A DNA stretch of 64,000 nt from Sedimentitalea xiamensis (GTDB lineage Bacteria; Pseudomonadota; Alphaproteobacteria; Rhodobacterales; Rhodobacteraceae). Location of the stretch: positions 62,001-126,000 of the forward strand of contig NZ_JASNJE010000002.1 in the NCBI RefSeq assembly GCF_030164465.1, in the 5' to 3' direction. Positions within the stretch are counted from its first letter, which is position 1, and every line of letters starts with the position of its first letter. Below, piece after piece: positions 1 to 7,272 of this stretch. The translations under genes and the position numbers were made by a program. The notes below the pieces were generated by a model. It had not been told where the DNA came from. It saw nothing but the letters and a program-made list of their open reading frames with translations, and made no database searches.

Positions 1-190
1 CTTCGACCGGCTCTGCATGCGCCCCGACGCCCAGGTTTTCATTGACCCAGTAGCGGAATTCCCGGCTGTCGTCCCGCGCCATGGCGTTCAGCCCCAAGGC
101 TTGGCCCGCGGATCGGTCCTCTGCTGCGAGTTCCTGCGCGAAGCCCCCCGCAACCAGGGCGCAAACGCAGATCAGGCCGGGATTTCGCAT
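1..190 (-). CDS. Secreted protein of unknown function, N-terminal part only
   Basis: The reading frame starts at an ATG at 190 and stays open to the left edge, so only about 63 residues are visible. A purine-rich GGGGG ribosome-binding site lies just upstream (about 195-200). The first 20 or so residues form a typical signal peptide: positively charged MRNP, then a hydrophobic LICVCALVAGGFA stretch. The protein is therefore probably exported. The mature part (for example FRYWVNENLG) contains nothing I recognise. The rest of the gene is outside the window, so no function is proposed. Confidence 0.6.
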   Translation of the reverse strand, partial: MRNPGLICVCALVAGGFAQELAAEDRSAGQALGLNAMARDDSREFRYWVNENLGVGAHAEPVE

Positions 191-331
191 GTGATCCCCC
201 TGGCGGGTTGAACTTGGTCGACCGGAATCCAACCCCGGACGAAACTTCAAGTCACGCAAAACAATAACCCGAAGCGCAATTCCCTGACGAAACTGTGCAT
301 TCCTGCAACGATTCCAGCGCGAGACCACCGT

Positions 332-1336
332 TCATGCCGGTTTGCGGCCTGCGCGGGGCTGTGGGCGGGTCGGGATTTCCTTCAGCAAACCGCCGACTCC
401 CATCGCCGAAATATCGGCGGCCGTCACCGGAACACCGCAGGCAATGCGGCTGAGAACCCAATCCGCGCCGTTGAGCGCCGGGGACCGCGCGCAGCCGGGC
501 AGACCGATGACCGGACGTCCCCCCATGCGGCCGAGGAACAGGAGATTGCCCGGATCGACGGGCATTCCGAACCGCTCCACCACCCCGCCCGCCCGGCGCA
601 ATGCGGCGGGCGCGACATCGTCCACGTCCGAAGTCGCCGAGCCGGTGAGGATCATCACCAGATCGCCGCGGATCCCGGCCAGGGCGCGGGCCAGATTGTC
701 GATGTCGTGGTCCACCGTCACGATATCCGACAAGTCCATGCCAAGCGCCGCGACCCGCCCTTCCATGGCGCGGATGCCCTTGTCATTGCCCGGTCCTCCG
801 TCGATGTCGGTGACGACGAGCCCCGCCGTTTCATAGACCGGGGGGGCGATGCGCAGCGCATTGGGCGCGCAGGCCGCGGCGCGGTCCACATCCGTTCCCG
901 GCACGCCGTAGGAAATGATCTTGATCGTCGCAACCATGCCGCCTTTCTGCATCTGCTGGAACGGCGGCACCGTGGCGATGGTGATCATCGGATGCACGCG
1001 GTTGAAACGCTCCAAAGCATCGACGTTCAGCACCGCGACACCCGGCGTATCGGCAATGAGATTGACCCGGCCGGTGAAAGGCGCCGTCACCGTCAGCCCC
1101 GCCGACGCCGGATCGGGCACCAGAACGGCGGCGAGTTTCGACGCGGCCGTGTTTTCATCGAGATCGCCCTGGGACAGCCGGGCGGCGATGACTTGCGTCA
1201 GCCCGGCGTCCCGCAGGGCGGCGACATGGTCCGCCGTCAAGACGACCCCCTTGCGCAACCGCGCGCCGGGCAGCTTCACGGAATGGGCCAGAACCGCGCC
1301 CTGGGCCTCCGATACGGCGACCGGGCCGAACTTCAT
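332..1336 (-). CDS. Molybdopterin-binding protein (MoeA/MogA-like)
   Basis: 334 residues. The C-terminal half is a MogA/MoaB-type molybdopterin-binding fold: LVVTDIDGG near residue 173, the substrate-loop motif TGSATSDVDD at 231-240 (family pattern TGG/S-x-S-x-x-x-x-D) and GLPGCARSP near 278. The N-terminal half resembles the MoeA entry region, but the protein is shorter than a full MoeA (about 400 residues). The start overlaps the stop of xdhC by 4 nt (ATGA), so the two are translationally coupled. A role in preparing or inserting molybdenum cofactor for a xanthine-oxidase-family hydroxylase is inferred from family and neighbours. No such hydroxylase is encoded in the window. Confidence 0.8.
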   Translation of the reverse strand: MKFGPVAVSEAQGAVLAHSVKLPGARLRKGVVLTADHVAALRDAGLTQVIAARLSQGDLDENTAASKLAAVLVPDPASAGLTVTAPFTGRVNLIADTPGVAVLNVDALERFNRVHPMITIATVPPFQQMQKGGMVATIKIISYGVPGTDVDRAAACAPNALRIAPPVYETAGLVVTDIDGGPGNDKGIRAMEGRVAALGMDLSDIVTVDHDIDNLARALAGIRGDLVMILTGSATSDVDDVAPAALRRAGGVVERFGMPVDPGNLLFLGRMGGRPVIGLPGCARSPALNGADWVLSRIACGVPVTAADISAMGVGGLLKEIPTRPQPRAGRKPA

Positions 1337-2304
1337 GAAACCCGTCCGCGCAGCACGCCCGTCATCTGCGCCAGGATCGACACCGCGATCTCCGCCGGCC
1401 CCGCAGCCCCGATGTCCAGGCCGACGGGTCCGTGAATGCGTGCGATCTGCGCCTCGGTGAAGCCTGCGGCCGTCATCCGGTCCACCCGTTTGGCGTGGGT
1501 CCGTGTGCTTCCCAGGGCCCCGATGTAGAAAACCTCGGCCGCCAAGGCGGCTTGGAGCGCGGGATCGTCAAGCTTCGGGTCATGGGTCAGCAGAACCAGC
1601 GCCGTGCGCGTATCCAGCCCGAGTTGCGCCACCGCCTCGTCGGGCCAGTCCCTCAGGATGGTTTCGCCGGGGAACCGATCGCTCGCGGCAAAAGCGTCGC
1701 GCGGATCTATCAGCACCGCGTCATAGCCTGCGATCCGGGCCATCGGCACCAGCGCCTGGGCGATATGGACCGCACCGACGACGATCAGGCGCAGGGGCGG
1801 ATTGTGCACCGCGACGAAGGTGACGCCATCCTCTTCGAAGCCGGACCGGTCCATCCGCATCCGGTCGGGGTATCCGCCCCTGACCAGCCGACGGTCTCCG
1901 GTGCGGGTGTTCACCTCGTAGGCCAGCGCCGTGCGCATCGCACGCGCCTGCACCAGGTCTTCCAGCATGTCGACCGGCAAGGCCGGGCCGACAGGCTCCA
2001 CGAAAATCCGGATGGTACCGCCGCAGGCCAGCCCGACGGCAAAGGCATCGTCATCGCTGACGCCGAATTCCAGCATCCTGTGGCGTCCGTCGTCGATGGC
2101 TTCGAGCGCCTCGACGATCACCGCGCCTTCGACGCAACCGCCGGACACGGATCCTTCGATCCGCCCGTCGCCCCCGACCGCCAGTTGCGCGCCGACCCTG
2201 CGCGGGGCGCTGCCCCAGGTCTGCACGACCGTGGCGAGGGCGGCGCCGACACCGTCGCGATGCCATTGCAGCGCGGTTTCGGGGCTGCTGTCAAATCGAT
2301 CCAT
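1333..2304 (-). CDS. XdhC/CoxI-family cofactor maturation protein
   Basis: 323 residues from the ATG at 2304, preferred over the ATG at 2310 because a GGGAGG Shine-Dalgarno sequence sits about 6 nt before 2304 but touches 2310. The N-terminal XdhC/CoxI domain has GSVSGGCVEG (about 51-60) and ACGG (about 93-96). A C-terminal Rossmann domain begins at LIVVGAVHIAQAL (about 173-185), with His where the usual GAGHVG loop is found, followed by a conserved GALGS motif. XdhC proteins bind molybdenum cofactor and protect or sulfurate it before insertion into xanthine dehydrogenase-like enzymes. It is cotranscribed with the downstream MoeA-like gene. Confidence 0.85.
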   Translation of the reverse strand: MDRFDSSPETALQWHRDGVGAALATVVQTWGSAPRRVGAQLAVGGDGRIEGSVSGGCVEGAVIVEALEAIDDGRHRMLEFGVSDDDAFAVGLACGGTIRIFVEPVGPALPVDMLEDLVQARAMRTALAYEVNTRTGDRRLVRGGYPDRMRMDRSGFEEDGVTFVAVHNPPLRLIVVGAVHIAQALVPMARIAGYDAVLIDPRDAFAASDRFPGETILRDWPDEAVAQLGLDTRTALVLLTHDPKLDDPALQAALAAEVFYIGALGSTRTHAKRVDRMTAAGFTEAQIARIHGPVGLDIGAAGPAEIAVSILAQMTGVLRGRVS

Positions 2305-2372
2305 GTCCATCCTCCCGGCACGGCAGTATCAAGCCAGGTGCAAATCCTGTCTGCCCCCCAAAAGGTATAAGA

Positions 2373-2404
2373 GCGGTCAGGTGGGAACACAAACACCTGA
2401 CCGC
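2373..2404 (-). terminator. Rho-independent-like hairpin after the yeeE pair
   Basis: A perfect 11-bp stem (2373-2383 with 2394-2404) closes a 10-nt loop between the yeeE stop (2459) and the xdhC start (2304). On the minus strand it is followed by a T-rich run (TCTTATACCTTTT). The position and strand fit a terminator for the yeeE transcript, separating it from xdhC. The T run is interrupted, so efficiency is uncertain. Confidence 0.6.
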
Positions 2405-2458
2405 CCAGGCCGCCCGATTTCCCGGACGGCCACAAGGGGATCGCATTTGGCTACGCCG

Positions 2459-3052
2459 TCATTCCGCCGGATGGCGATGTCCGGACGGGCGGCTGACAAG
2501 CCGTTCGGGCAAGGTGAAGGCGACGGCGATGAACGCGGCGCCAAGAAGTAGTCCGAGACTATCCCCCGGCAGCGCCGTCACCGCGTCAATACCCGATCCG
2601 GGAACCGCGCCAAGCGTGACCTTGCCGCCGAGAACCGGTTCCAGAACGCCGCTGGATTTCCACATCGGGTAGGTGACCATGTAGGCCGCGGCTCCAAGCA
2701 ATCCCCCGGCAATGAAGAACAGCGCATCCTTCCGGCCCGAAGCCGCCGCGACGACGCCGGTGCCGGGGCAGTATCCGGCGGCGGCCCAACCGGCTCCCAG
2801 CATCAAGCCGCCGATGAAGACACCCGCATAGGCCGACTTGACGGACATATGGCCCACATCGACGACGCCCAGCATCTGACCACCGAACATCAGGACGGAT
2901 CCGACCCCGATCGCCAGCAGGATGGTCTTGGCCAGATTGAGATTGGTCAGGTTCAGCATTTTTCCGATCAGCGAGGGATTGCTGGCCCCGACCCGGTCGA
3001 GAACCGCACCGAAGGCGGCACCGATCACGAGAGCGAGAAGAAGAGACGTCAT
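2459..3052 (-). CDS. YeeE/YedE-family membrane protein, second half-transporter
   Basis: 197 residues, mostly hydrophobic, with about five membrane segments. The family signature GYCPGTGVVAAASGRKDA (about 94-111) contains the conserved Cys that in YeeE/TsuA-type transporters relays thiosulfate or persulfide sulfur through the pore. E. coli YeeE is a single long chain; here, as in many alphaproteobacteria, the two halves are separate genes. The start overlaps the upstream half by 4 nt (3049-3052), which suggests coupled translation of a heteromer. Inner membrane; import of reduced sulfur is inferred from the family. Confidence 0.88.
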   Translation of the reverse strand: MTSLLLALVIGAAFGAVLDRVGASNPSLIGKMLNLTNLNLAKTILLAIGVGSVLMFGGQMLGVVDVGHMSVKSAYAGVFIGGLMLGAGWAAAGYCPGTGVVAAASGRKDALFFIAGGLLGAAAYMVTYPMWKSSGVLEPVLGGKVTLGAVPGSGIDAVTALPGDSLGLLLGAAFIAVAFTLPERLVSRPSGHRHPAE

Positions 3053-3594
3053 GCGATGGCCTCCTTTTTATACATCAGAAGCGCGACGGGAATGGCCGCG
3101 CCAAAGGCGCCGGCGGCGAAGATGTAACCCGACACCGCCGTCTGCATCATCCCCGACATCATATGTCCCGACGTGCAGCCTCCCGCCAGACGCGCGCCAT
3201 AGAGCACCACGAACCCTCCGAGAAAGGCGACGACGTAGCGTTTTACCGCGCTGTCGCCGAAGTTCCCCCGCCACAGGGCCGGACTGCTGCGTTCGGCCCT
3301 GGACAGGCCGCCCCTTGCGAGGCTCGACAGAAGCCCGCCGACAGCCATCGCCAGAACGAAAACGAAACCGTAGTTCAACGGATTGGCGACGGATTTCGCA
3401 TATTTGTCGAGATACGCATTGGTCGAGGCGAAACCGTCCGCTGTCTGCGTCACCAGGTCCGGATTGACCGCATTCGCGATGATGCCGTCCAGAATGACGA
3501 ATTGCGTGGATACTCCGATGGGTTTGACCAAGAGCACGGCGGCGAAGAACACCAAGCCGAGCAGCAGGCCACCGATTTTCCAGTTCAGAGCCAT
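3049..3594 (-). CDS. YeeE/YedE-family membrane protein, first half-transporter
   Basis: 181 residues from the ATG at 3594, preceded by a good GGAAAGGA ribosome-binding site. The frame extends upstream to 3675, but that segment carries the promoter and operators and is not membrane-like. The second conserved Cys motif of the family, GARLAGGCTSGHMMSG, lies near residue 140. There are about four or five hydrophobic segments. It forms a pair with the overlapping downstream half. Its promoter region holds an FNR-type box and an ATTC-N8-GAAT operator, so expression is probably controlled by oxygen and by reactive sulfur. Confidence 0.88.
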   Translation of the reverse strand: MALNWKIGGLLLGLVFFAAVLLVKPIGVSTQFVILDGIIANAVNPDLVTQTADGFASTNAYLDKYAKSVANPLNYGFVFVLAMAVGGLLSSLARGGLSRAERSSPALWRGNFGDSAVKRYVVAFLGGFVVLYGARLAGGCTSGHMMSGMMQTAVSGYIFAAGAFGAAIPVALLMYKKEAIA

Positions 3595-3613
3595 TGTCTG
3601 TCCTTTCCAATAA

Positions 3614-3631
3614 TATTCTGCTTTCAGAATA
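3614..3631 (-). promoter_or_regulatory. SqrR/BigR-type operator (ATTC-N8-GAAT)
   Basis: ATTC at 3615-3618 and GAAT at 3627-3630 with exactly eight bases between; the outer T and A extend the dyad by one pair. This is the signature described for the sulfide/persulfide-responsive ArsR-family repressors SqrR and BigR, whose known targets include YeeE-type genes. A -10-like TATTCT on the minus strand (3631-3626) falls inside it, so a bound repressor would block the promoter of the yeeE pair 20 nt downstream. Confidence 0.65.
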
Positions 3632-3652
3632 CGTAAATCGGTTCGCGATGTC

Positions 3653-3666
3653 TTGATCTGGATCAA
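3653..3666. promoter_or_regulatory. FNR/FnrL box (TTGAT-N4-ATCAA)
   Basis: A perfect palindrome TTGAT CTGG ATCAA, matching the FnrL consensus of Rhodobacteraceae. Its centre (3659.5) is about 41.5 nt upstream of the transcription start predicted from the -10-like element at 3626-3631, the classic activating position. It lies in the spacer between the coxE-like stop and the yeeE pair, and the nearest downstream gene is yeeE. Activation under low oxygen is inferred. Confidence 0.65.
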
Positions 3667-3739
3667 TTCGCCCATTGACCGAAACGCGGCACCGATCTGG
3701 CGCGACGGACCGTCATGCCGGACCGGGCAGGCGGTTGCG

Positions 3740-5008
3740 CTATCCGCCTCGCTGCAACTGCGCCATCAGACGCGCCTTTTCCCCGACATCGTCGGGGCGC
3801 GAGATGACATACGCGAGGTCCTGAAGCGACGCAACCGAATGCCCGGCGCGAAAGCTGTCCACATGCGGCAGCATCGCGGCGATCCCCCGTGCCTTGGGCG
3901 CGAAACCGTCCCAGCGCAACAGGGGGTTCAACCAGATCAGGCGCCGCGCCGACAAATGCAGGCGTTCGATCTGTCGCGCCAATGCATCCGGATCGTCCCG
4001 GTCCAGGCCGTCCGTGATCAGCAGGACGACCGCCCCCTGCCCCATGACCCGGCGCGACCAGTCCCGGTTGAACGCCTCGAGGCACTGGCCGATCCGGGTG
4101 CCGCCTTCCCAATCCTGCGCCTCCGCCCCGGCGGCGGCCAGCGCCGCGTCCACGTCGCGCTGATTGAGATGCCGGGTAATATTGGTGAGCCGGGTGCCGA
4201 AGGTGAAGGCATGCACTTTCGCCCATCCCGCCCCCTTCGCATTGCTGACCGCATGCAGGAAATGCAGGATGATCCGGCTGTATTGGCTCATCGAGCCCGA
4301 GATATCGCAGAGAACGACGAGGTTGGGCCAGCGCGGCCTGGGTTTGCGGCGGACGATGTCGTGCAGTTCGCCGCCCTGCCGCATGCTGGCGCGCAGCGTC
4401 CTGCGCCAATCGACCCGCTGCCCTTGCGGGCTGACCATGCCGCGCCGCGACGGGATCGGCTGCACCGGCAGGCTCAACCGGGCCAGCATGCGCTTGGCCT
4501 GTGCGACTTCCTCGGTGCTCATCTGTTCGAAATCGAGACGGCGCAGGCGTTCCTCGGACGACATGGTCATCGAGGCATCGACCTCGATCAGCGTCTCCTC
4601 CTCCGGGCCATCGCTGTCGCCTTCCGGCAGCTCCGGCGTGATCCCGTCAAGCAGCGCCTCGGCGGCGCGCTTTTCTGCGGCCTGCGCGCTGCGGTCCTCC
4701 TGCACCCCGCGAATGGCGGGAAGCATCATCGACATCATGTGCTCCATGAATCGCGGATCGCGCCAGTAGAGCCGGAAGATCTGCGCGAACACCGTGCGCT
4801 GCTCGGGCTTGTTCACGAAACAGGCATGCAGCGTCCAGTAGAAATCGCGCTTGTCGGTGAACCCCGCCGCCTCCACTGCCCTTATCGCGTCGATCACCCG
4901 GCCGCTGCCGATCGGAAGCCCGGCCTTGCGCAGGGCGCGGGCGAAATGGGTGATGTTGTGGACCAGCTTGGGGTCGTCGGGAATATCCAGCGGCGCGTAT
5001 TCGGGCAT
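3740..5008 (-). CDS. CoxE-like VWA-domain protein
   Basis: 422 residues. The C-terminal von Willebrand A domain carries a complete-looking metal-ion-dependent adhesion site: DISGS at 235-239, a GGTRIG segment near 295 and ITDGLDRDD near 325. CoxE works with the MoxR ATPase CoxD to mature the active site of CO dehydrogenases and related molybdenum hydroxylases. The coxD-like gene ends 83 nt upstream on the same strand, so an operon is likely. The structural subunits (coxMSL) are not in the window. Confidence 0.85.
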   Translation of the reverse strand: MPEYAPLDIPDDPKLVHNITHFARALRKAGLPIGSGRVIDAIRAVEAAGFTDKRDFYWTLHACFVNKPEQRTVFAQIFRLYWRDPRFMEHMMSMMLPAIRGVQEDRSAQAAEKRAAEALLDGITPELPEGDSDGPEEETLIEVDASMTMSSEERLRRLDFEQMSTEEVAQAKRMLARLSLPVQPIPSRRGMVSPQGQRVDWRRTLRASMRQGGELHDIVRRKPRPRWPNLVVLCDISGSMSQYSRIILHFLHAVSNAKGAGWAKVHAFTFGTRLTNITRHLNQRDVDAALAAAGAEAQDWEGGTRIGQCLEAFNRDWSRRVMGQGAVVLLITDGLDRDDPDALARQIERLHLSARRLIWLNPLLRWDGFAPKARGIAAMLPHVDSFRAGHSVASLQDLAYVISRPDDVGEKARLMAQLQRGG

Positions 5009-5018
5009 TCAGTCGTCA

Positions 5019-5065
5019 TGGGGGCGCTGCCCCCATACCCCCGGAGTATTTTTGCAAAGATGAAG
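5019..5065. repeat. GC-rich extragenic hairpin element of Rhodobacteraceae type
   Basis: In the gap between the coxD-like and coxE-like genes, a 7-bp stem (5019-5025 with 5029-5035, loop GCT) is followed by ACCCCCGGAGTATTTTTGC and AAAGATGAAG. From memory, near-identical strings (GGGGGC-x-GCCCCC, then CCCCGGAGTATTTTTG and AAG) occur in many copies between genes in roseobacters. I see only one copy here, so the repeat status rests on that recollection. Confidence 0.5.
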
Positions 5066-5091
5066 CATCAAAAAGGTCGCCCCGCGGCGGT

Positions 5092-6000
5092 TCATGCCAC
5101 CTCCAGCGTTGCCCTGGCCTCGTCGAGGATACGTTTCGCCTCCGAGCCCTGCAGCTTCTGGATGTCGTCCTGGTATTTCAGGATCGCGCCCAGCGTGTCG
5201 GCGATGACCTCGGGGCTGAGATTGATCACGTCCAGCGCCAGCAGGCACTTGGCCCAGTCGATGGTCTCGGCCACGCCGGGTTTCTTGAACAGGTCCTCGG
5301 TGCGCAAGCGCTGGACAAAGGCCACCACCTCGCGGCTCAGGGTTTCCGAAGCCTCGGGCGCGCGGGCGTGCAGGATCTCGATCTCGCGGTCGAAATCCGG
5401 GTAATCGACCCAGTGATAGAGACAGCGCCGCTTCAGCGCGTCATGCACCTCGCGGGTGCGGTTGCTGGTCAGGATCACGATCGGCGGCTCGGGCGCCCTG
5501 ATCGTGCCAAGCTCCGGGATCGTCACCTGGAAATCGCTGAGCGACTCCAGAAGAAAGGCTTCGAAAGGTTCGTCGGTGCGATCCAGTTCGTCGATCAGCA
5601 GAACCGGTGCGCCGTGTTCATCCGGGCGCAGCGCCTGAAGCAGCGGACGTTCGACGAGGTAGTCAGCACTGAACAATTCGCGGTTCAGCGCGTCGCGGTC
5701 GGCGTTCCCCGACGCCTCGGCGGTCCGGATCGCGATCATCTGCGCCGGGAAGTTCCATTCGTAGACGGCGCTAGAGGCATCGAGCCCTTCGTAGCACTGC
5801 AGACGGATCAGGCGCCGGTTCAGCCCGGCGGCCAGGGCCTTGGCGATCTCGGTCTTGCCGACGCCGGCTTCGCCTTCGAGAAACAGCGGCCGGCCCAGTT
5901 TCAGCGACAGGAAAACGACCGTCGCCAGCGCCCGACCGCAGACATAGCCCTGTTCCGACAGCATCTGCTGAACGGCATCGATGGATTGCGGTATCTGCAT
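5092..6000 (-). CDS. CoxD-like MoxR-family AAA+ ATPase
   Basis: 302 residues from the ATG at 6000, chosen because AGAGGAGATCAC precedes it; an in-frame ATG at 6021 has no such site. Walker A is GEAGVGKT (43-50), Walker B is LLIDELDR, and sensor 1 is ILTSNRTR. The MoxR type couples ATP hydrolysis to maturation of a partner with a VWA protein, here the coxE-like gene directly downstream. In Oligotropha the pair inserts the Cu-S part of the CO dehydrogenase cluster. Its true client in this organism cannot be read from the window. Confidence 0.87.
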   Translation of the reverse strand: MQIPQSIDAVQQMLSEQGYVCGRALATVVFLSLKLGRPLFLEGEAGVGKTEIAKALAAGLNRRLIRLQCYEGLDASSAVYEWNFPAQMIAIRTAEASGNADRDALNRELFSADYLVERPLLQALRPDEHGAPVLLIDELDRTDEPFEAFLLESLSDFQVTIPELGTIRAPEPPIVILTSNRTREVHDALKRRCLYHWVDYPDFDREIEILHARAPEASETLSREVVAFVQRLRTEDLFKKPGVAETIDWAKCLLALDVINLSPEVIADTLGAILKYQDDIQKLQGSEAKRILDEARATLEVA

Positions 6001-6062
6001 GTGATCTCCTCTGACGCCCAAAAGGTCACGAATTCGGCGGCGCCGTCAAGCGGCGGGCTGTG

Positions 6063-6080
6063 GGACCATGGTCTTAGACC
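6063..6080. promoter_or_regulatory. Overlapping palindromes in a divergent spacer
   Basis: GACCATGGTC (6064-6073, perfect) overlaps GGTCT-T-AGACC (6070-6080, perfect). The 243-nt spacer separates the coxD-like gene (minus) from the glycosyltransferase cassette (plus), so this is a candidate operator. No regulator is identified. Confidence 0.3.
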
Positions 6081-6243
6081 GCAGGTTGCCACGACGACGC
6101 CCGGACAGCGCCGGCGTTGACCGGTTCCCGTAGGAATGTCATGAATTATCAAGGTTTGCGGCGATAGAAATGCGCCGAGAGAGACCGCAGAGGCAGACCG
6201 GTTCAAGGCAGGGCCGACGCCGGCGCGCGGCGCGAGGGATGGA

Positions 6244-7272
6244 ATGCGGATCACTGCGATAACCTGCGTCAAGAACGAGGGCCCGTTTCTTCTGGAGTGG
6301 ATCGCGTTCAACGGATTGCTCGGGGTGACGGATTTCCTGTTCTATTCCAACGACTGCGACGATGGCACCGACGCCTTGCTCGACGCACTGGCGGCGCGCG
6401 GGATCGTGCGGCACCTTCCGAACCCGGCAAGAGGACGGAACTACCAGATGGAAGCGCTGAAACACGCGCGGGATCAGGACATTGTGTCTGAGGCCGACTG
6501 GGTCTGGGTGGCCGATGTCGACGAGTTTCTCAACATTCATTCGGGCGATCACACCATACCGGCGCTGATTGCCGCCTGTGGCGATCCCCATGCGATTTCC
6601 GTCAGTTTTCAGTTCTTCGCCAACGACGGCGTGGAGCATTATGCCGACGAACCCGTGATCGCGCAGTTCAGACGGTCGCACAACCCGGACATCTGGTGCG
6701 GCGAAACGGCGATCGAAGTCAAAACGCTGGTTCGGCGCGATTTCCCCTTGCAGTATTTCGGCGCTCACAGGCCATTTTTCAAAGGCAACCTTGCGCCTGC
6801 CGATCGGCCGGTCTGGACCGACGGATCCGGCCGCGCGGTGCCGCACAAGTTTCTGATGGCCGCCAATACGCGGCGTATCCGCCGGTTTCCCGCGCGGGGC
6901 GCGCGGACCCACGCCACGCTCAACCACTATGCCCTGCGATCGCTTGACAGCTATCTGGTCAAGACCGCACGGGGCGACGTGAATCGCGAGAACCGTGTCT
7001 TTGACGACACCTACTGGCGCGAACGCAACGATCCCGCCCATTCCGATACAAGCATCCACAGGTATTTGCCCGCCCTGACCGCCGCGTTGCGGGATTTTCA
7101 CGCGGACCGCGAAATTGCCGCTCTGCACCGGGAATGTGTCCGTCTGCACCGGGCCAGATGCGTCGAACTGGCAGGACGGCCTGCCTATCGGCGCATGCGC
7201 AGCCTGCTGACGTCGGCCAGCACGCTGCCCCCGCAGGAAGAGGCGATGCTCGCCGATCTGGGGCTGCTCTGA
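6244..7272 (+). CDS. Glycosyltransferase family 2-like protein
   Basis: 342 residues. It opens with ITCVKNEGPFLLEW (6-19) and a SNDCDDGT loop (35-42), then DVDEF at 91-95, the metal/nucleotide-sugar DxD-type motif of the GT-A fold. The pattern fits the Glyco_tranf_2_4 group. Near the C-terminus an NHYALRS motif is shared with the second glycosyltransferase domain at 7907-10252, so the two look paralogous. There is no membrane segment, so it is probably cytosolic. A GAGGGATGGA ribosome-binding site precedes it. Acceptor and sugar are unknown; the neighbours suggest a sulfated surface glycan or glycoconjugate. Confidence 0.8.
   Translation: MRITAITCVKNEGPFLLEWIAFNGLLGVTDFLFYSNDCDDGTDALLDALAARGIVRHLPNPARGRNYQMEALKHARDQDIVSEADWVWVADVDEFLNIHSGDHTIPALIAACGDPHAISVSFQFFANDGVEHYADEPVIAQFRRSHNPDIWCGETAIEVKTLVRRDFPLQYFGAHRPFFKGNLAPADRPVWTDGSGRAVPHKFLMAANTRRIRRFPARGARTHATLNHYALRSLDSYLVKTARGDVNRENRVFDDTYWRERNDPAHSDTSIHRYLPALTAALRDFHADREIAALHRECVRLHRARCVELAGRPAYRRMRSLLTSASTLPPQEEAMLADLGLL

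Follow-up and report, generated by a model that had tools for sequence, protein, structure and literature searches.

A predicted composite FnrL and SqrR/BigR-type promoter upstream of split yeeE genes in Sedimentitalea xiamensis

In sediments and marine particles, oxygen levels change in step with those of sulfide. Whether a single bacterial promoter might read both signals is the question raised by a short intergenic gap in Sedimentitalea xiamensis, where a perfect FNR-type box and a perfect dyad resembling the operator of persulfide-sensing repressors lie together ahead of two putative sulfur importer genes. The two halves of such an arrangement are already known separately, since yeeE can be controlled by BigR and heme and oxidase genes by FnrL, and no report of a combined FnrL and SqrR/BigR-type promoter was found in the literature searched, where subscription papers were thinly covered.

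Two palindromic sites between coxE and yeeE1

The window, i.e., the whole stretch of 64,000 nucleotides analysed, is part of a 4.75 Mb draft genome (G000, the source genome in our locus labels). On its minus strand it carries, in order, a coxD/MoxR-like AAA ATPase gene (5092..6000; AAA_5), a coxE-like gene for a VWA protein (3740..5008; PF05762), yeeE1 (3049..3594), yeeE2 (2459..3052), an xdhC/coxI-type gene for a molybdoenzyme maturation factor (1333..2310; PF13478, PF02625) and a gene for a molybdopterin-binding (MoCF_biosynth) protein (332..1336; PF00994). The start of yeeE2 overlaps the end of yeeE1, and xdhC is possibly cotranscribed with the pair. The two half-size YeeE/YedE proteins correspond to the C-terminal (yeeE1, PmpA-like; positions 177-307 of the Sulf_transp model PF04143) and N-terminal (yeeE2, PmpB-like; positions 8-110) halves of YeeE, which is the split seen in PmpAB. 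However, at 181 and 197 amino acids, respectively, they are larger than the PmpAB halves, which are described as having about 130 residues and four helices (PMC11582611), and we thus term them PmpAB-like only.

Both sites sit in the gap between coxE (end 3740) and yeeE1 (start 3594), and since yeeE1 is encoded on the minus strand, the dyad lies downstream of the FNR box. The latter, at 3653..3666 (centre 3659.5), is TTGATCTGGATCAA, or TTGATCCAGATCAA in the minus-strand reading, and the dyad, at 3615-3630, is ATTCTGCTTTCAGAAT, a candidate SqrR/BigR/SoxR-type operator enclosed in an extended dyad, TATTCTG-N4-CAGAATA, with perfect 7-bp arms (3614..3631). A first-pass annotation of this DNA had claimed a perfect TTGAT-N4-ATCAA and a perfect ATTC-N8-GAAT at these positions, and both proved to be present and perfect. 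Its placement of a -10-like element inside the dyad likewise held, the minus-strand hexamer being TATTCT at 3631-3626, and its predicted transcription start at 3618 on the minus strand is reproduced by subtracting 41.5 from the box centre, as expected for class II geometry. A Shine-Dalgarno-like GGAAAGGA follows at 3601..3608 on the same strand. A search for RNA elements over window positions 1-7000 gave zero Rfam matches above the gathering score.

TTGAT-N4-ATCAA is the canonical FnrL target (PMC2908626), and the box is shared with the FnrL regulons of Rhodobacter sphaeroides and R. capsulatus; the R. sphaeroides targets include hemA, coxI, coxII and aa3 oxidase genes, whereas neither an SqrR operator nor yeeE is mentioned in the accessible parts of these reports (PMC2908626, PMC4634722). 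ATTC-N8-GAAT is the deduced recognition sequence of SqrR of R. capsulatus and is common to YgaV of E. coli, the site of which covers the ygaVP promoter (PMC9774250). YgaV-regulated genes of E. coli seldom coincide with those regulated by FNR or ArcAB (PMC9774250), in contrast to the locus described here, where both sites fall on one promoter. A close parallel is the yeeE-yedE-pdo2 operon regulated by BigR in Acinetobacter baumannii and also found in Serratia (PMC7315123), in which YeeE/YedE genes are controlled by a dithiol ArsR persulfide sensor, as is predicted here. The present locus differs from it in that the genes lie between coxE-like and xdhC-like genes, the window holds no match to the ArsR model PF01022, and the promoter contains an FNR box.

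Perfect FNR boxes are expected by chance only 0.05 times in the window. Perfect dyads are expected 1.11 times, so that the dyad is at chance level within the window and the case for it rests on comparison across relatives.

Conservation and spacing upstream of yeeE1

Of 121 relatives, 15 had a match to yeeE1, as did 49 of 394 family genomes. In the 14 stretches recovered from relatives, some of which end at contig ends, yeeE2 was beside yeeE1 in 14/14, coxE was present in 10/14 and xdhC in 9/14. We assembled 119 upstream regions, comprising 39 loci from the relatives and family scans (without 12 weaker of the 50 family-scan matches, for which there were no loci) and, from a further scan, the 80 best of 323 matches. 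Regions sharing 85% identity or more across their final 100 bp were dropped, leaving 101 non-redundant ones; six loci with an extrapolated start that is not a start codon (L083, L149, L161, L164, L207 and L222) were kept, with positions shifted.

The first-pass annotation had suggested looking for the two sites ahead of yeeE in related genomes, and the outcome was strongly positive. Already among the first 15 relatives with yeeE1, 14 had an FNR box (≤2 mismatches) and 11 a dyad (≤1 mismatch). In the 101 regions, the FNR box was perfect in 16, within one mismatch in 68 and within two in 82, compared to 0.05, 1.19 and 11.67 in shuffles, and the dyad was perfect in 72 and within one mismatch in 85 (0.585 and 11.43 in shuffles). 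Half-sites at adjacent spacings were nearly absent: TTGAT-N3-ATCAA occurred once and the N5 form never (≤1 mismatch), and ATTC-N7-GAAT and ATTC-N9-GAAT gave no perfect match and 12 and 5 matches within one mismatch, respectively. That two short palindromes coincide here by chance, for which the expected number of dyads per window would speak, is refuted by this conservation and appears extremely improbable, as an FNR box (≤1 mismatch) and a perfect dyad occurred together in 55 of the 101 regions and in none of 200 shuffle sets. These joint counts, together with the near-empty adjacent spacers, indicate that the two pairs of half-sites are conserved jointly and at fixed spacing. Under relaxed thresholds (FNR ≤2, dyad ≤1 mismatch), 73 regions had both sites, 9 had only the FNR box, 12 had only the dyad and 7 had no site; the 28/101 regions that lack one or both sites even then count against the reading of a shared promoter.

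The architecture also occurs in Ruegeria pomeroyi (L162), where an FNR box with two mismatches lies at -76, a perfect dyad at -39 and a dyad with one mismatch at -64. Some promoters departed from this pattern. At L081, an FNR box without a dyad is accompanied by a G+C-rich inverted repeat ahead of the start codon, and at L078 by the palindrome ATCATAT-N3-ATATGAT. In L235 (G009, contig C2), a relative with no yeeE1 match, the interval from coxE to xdhC still has the FNR box along with two dyads, followed by a different small gene. A perfect ATTC-N14-GAAT was not rare, being present in 9/101 upstream regions, above the other off-spacers, and this counts against the composite reading.

Promoter geometry was examined in those 68 regions where an FNR box with ≤1 mismatch served as the anchor; in 62 of them, the box begins between -70 and -80 relative to the ATG. 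Relative to the box start, perfect dyads began at +36 (2), +37 (27) and +38 to +41 (13), with the exact +37 position accounting for 27 of 43 proximal perfect dyads, and elsewhere at +12 (20), -19 to -21 (10) and +19, +43 and +56 (1 each). The column consensus at +36 to +41 is TATTCT; a dyad at +37 thus places this hexamer where a class II promoter, with its activator at -41.5, needs the -10 element, a role we assign to it by prediction. In the window the dyad offset is 36, one base shorter than the mode, and the hexamer offset is 35, where the dyads of 27/68 anchored regions imply 36. The +12 dyad, of which the window has no copy, overlaps the end of the FNR 14-mer by two bases (ATCATTC), so that simultaneous occupancy by both proteins would not be easy.

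A different promoter for yeeE1, TTTACG-16-TATTAT (3637-3610), would move the FNR box to about -56 and put the dyad in the spacer of its -35 and -10 elements. It was the sole consensus promoter reported in 3560-3760 (9/12; 0.1 in shuffles), yet a start near 3603 would cost the transcript most of the Shine-Dalgarno sequence at 3601-3608, the conserved column at offsets 36-41 from the FNR start reads TATTCT, and in the regions printed the GAAT half is often followed by GTGA or ATGA instead of TATTAT. We consider this promoter quite unlikely, and retain the class II arrangement with the dyad over the -10 hexamer. As a promoter architecture, the reading given in the first-pass annotation is well supported.

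Candidate regulators and further genes with the site pair

That reading needs both kinds of regulator, and would have failed in a genome without FnrL and SqrR/BigR genes; both kinds are encoded, as FnrL and as a pair of dithiol ArsR proteins. The FnrL gene (L048) scored 463.5 bits against the NCBIfam FnrL model (cut-off 300), and its product has the N-terminal cluster of Fe-S cysteines, CSDCPIRHRAVCARC. Eight proteins in the genome match HTH_Crp_2 above the Pfam cut-off, and the box might mainly serve an NO-responsive Dnr/NnrR-type or RedB-like paralogue, or several CRP/FNR proteins, rather than FnrL. Dnr and Anr boxes are indistinguishable (PMC5398030), and in a 2010 comparative study, where an XdhC/CoxI-type maturation factor is among the units with FNR/FixK/DNR-type boxes, the set RSP1934, a candidate counterpart of the present one, was assigned to FixK and not to FNR (PMC2908626). 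Against this, the box has the exact FnrL consensus, and TTGATctggATCAA is listed under the FnrL ChIP peak of R. sphaeroides coxI (PMC2908626). Use of the box by such paralogues seems unlikely, and FnrL is the favoured activator.

Eight proteins of the genome, none encoded in the window, match PF01022. Six of these were read, and two have the paired cysteines of the SqrR/BigR/SoxR group (ILCHL...LFC). The first, on contig C16, has BigR as its best NCBI model, scoring 111 bits against the NCBIfam BigR equivalog, the best among the models listed and below the cut-off of 155; we thus call it BigR-type and not BigR. The second, on contig C10, is SoxR-like, judging from the protein and its neighbouring genes. 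Strict C16 orthologues (at least 77% identity; the next match is at 71%) occur in 18 of 121 relatives, including 11/15 with yeeE versus 7/106 without (Fisher 2.7e-8, with relatedness ignored). Two further expectations were rejected. The dyad at yeeE is not a marker of the C16 orthologue, which is present in 8/11 genomes with the dyad versus 3/4 without (15 genomes; no correlation), and autoregulation found no support, with a perfect dyad in 0/30 ArsR genes (18 strict orthologues and 12 at 65-72%) within 400 bp upstream.

The pairing itself exceeds chance in the source genome. There, perfect FNR boxes number 19 and perfect dyads 37, and three of the dyads lie within 75 bp of a box, at yeeE, ctaD and hemA, compared to 0.022 expected (three or more, P = 1.8e-6; two or more, with the doubted ctaD pair removed, P = 2.4e-4). 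We also searched other genomes with DNA patterns only, requiring an FNR box followed by a dyad 10-40 bp downstream and using no protein information. This gave 17 composite matches in 10/61 relatives and 89 in 76/394 family genomes, versus 20 matches in 19/394 genomes for a decoy with a nine-base (N9) dyad spacer; a reversed-pattern control gave 0 matches and carries no weight, as it contains stop-like words. The downstream gene was read for 80 of these matches; the remaining nine were placed by coordinates, and each was yeeE1. While 37 matches had no coherent gene, and several of these apparently lie inside coding sequence, 52 could be assigned, mainly to yeeE1 (16), ctaD (13), TsoY-family genes (7) and sulfide-quinone-reductase-like FAD oxidoreductases (6). 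Further targets were cydA, ctaC and a multihaem cytochrome (2 each) and, once each, hemA, a YgaP-like membrane protein, a cytochrome c that we read as SoxX-like, and a yeeE-less locus with coxE and xdhC. Pfam and NCBIfam models were run on target representatives only, the remaining assignments being made by sequence resemblance; two of the FAD proteins scored 215 and 107 bits against the selenoprotein SQR model, far under its cut-off of 525. The TsoY-family-like genes behind composite promoters are at L236, L248, L250, L284, L293, L306 and L309, the family model having been run on L248. As the search was blind to proteins, the enrichment of sulfur and respiratory genes among its targets independently supports what the dyad is taken to be.

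At hemA of the source genome (5-aminolevulinate synthase), a perfect dyad follows an FNR box by 72 bp (contig C66:191582-191669; L032:4583-4670). Across the 30 hemA loci examined, from among 54 matches listed, nine had a perfect dyad, eight of them 72-73 bp after the FNR box, and perfect N7 and N9 dyads numbered 0 and 0. The ctaD pair fared differently. A perfect dyad follows an FNR box in the source genome (contig C42:15876-15933; L031), and the perfect pair recurs in 12 other genomes; in 30 ctaD upstream regions (from 36 matches, 30 of which had loci), however, the dyad was perfect in 2 and within one mismatch in 8. Instead, ATTCTARAA occurred 42 bp after the FNR start in 9/30, with the GAAT half perfect in only 2. 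We read this as a probable promoter element and not a conserved operator, and ctaD is excluded from our claim as a conserved composite target.

Which of the two dithiol ArsR proteins would bind the dyad is less clear from these data than the class to which the repressor belongs. The dyad could be genuine and bound by the C10 SoxR-like protein rather than the C16 BigR-type one, or by both. SoxR is a member of the same dithiol ArsR group (PMC12423496), and a perfect dyad, ATTCACAATCGTGAAT, is found some 2.3 kb away from the gene for the SoxR-like protein (L065:6577-6592, G000 contig C10), ahead of an outward-reading gene of its cluster. In addition, C16-type genes have no dyad of their own, and the yeeE dyad is kept without a strict C16 orthologue in genomes G007, G012 (with one mismatch; this genome is 82% complete) and G020. 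On the other hand, composite matches track the C16 orthologue, being present in 13/18 genomes with it versus 7/55 without (73 family genomes; ctaD and unassigned matches counted), as do perfect hemA dyads, with the orthologue in 8/9 genomes that have the dyad versus 2/21 that do not; relatedness is ignored in these comparisons too. We regard binding by the C10 protein as possible, and the lesser expectation. The kind of repressor (SqrR/BigR/SoxR group) is well supported by these comparisons, the individual ArsR protein is not.

A predicted gate for oxygen and sulfur

Taken with the encoded regulators, the sites suggest the following course of events. When oxygen is low, FnrL would bind TTGAT-N4-ATCAA at about -41.5 and activate transcription through class II contacts. 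A repressor from the SqrR/BigR/SoxR group of dithiol ArsR proteins, bound to ATTC-N8-GAAT over the -10 element, would keep the polymerase out, and this block would be lifted once its two cysteines become linked by persulfide or polysulfide. The outcome would be an AND gate for low oxygen and sulfane sulfur, with yeeE1 probably expressed only where low oxygen and reactive sulfur coincide, and the product would be a PmpAB-like sulfur importer adjoining molybdoenzyme maturation genes. We consider it likely, from the sequence comparisons above, that a composite FnrL and dithiol-ArsR promoter of this kind drives yeeE1-yeeE2, and possibly xdhC, in this manner.

A broader proposal, for and against which we find the balance roughly even, is that of an oxygen/persulfide regulon in Rhodobacteraceae, in which FnrL and an SqrR/BigR-type repressor would share promoters at yeeE, hemA, genes for sulfide-oxidoreductase-like flavoproteins, TsoY-family genes and cydA-type oxidase genes, and in which the distal site overlapping the 3' end of the FNR box (20 counts in 68 regions) would lead to direct mutual exclusion of the two proteins in many species. 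SqrR is heme-responsive; if the repressor at these promoters were so too, its site at hemA would complete a loop of feedback control.

XdhC/CoxDE-type genes serve enzymes that require a sulfur ligand at molybdenum, and supply of sulfur to molybdoenzymes would thus be a reasonable candidate purpose for the importer, whose position beside molybdoenzyme maturation genes hints at the destination of the imported sulfur. If true, the architecture, common to dozens of species, would be a direct integration point for oxygen and sulfur signals.
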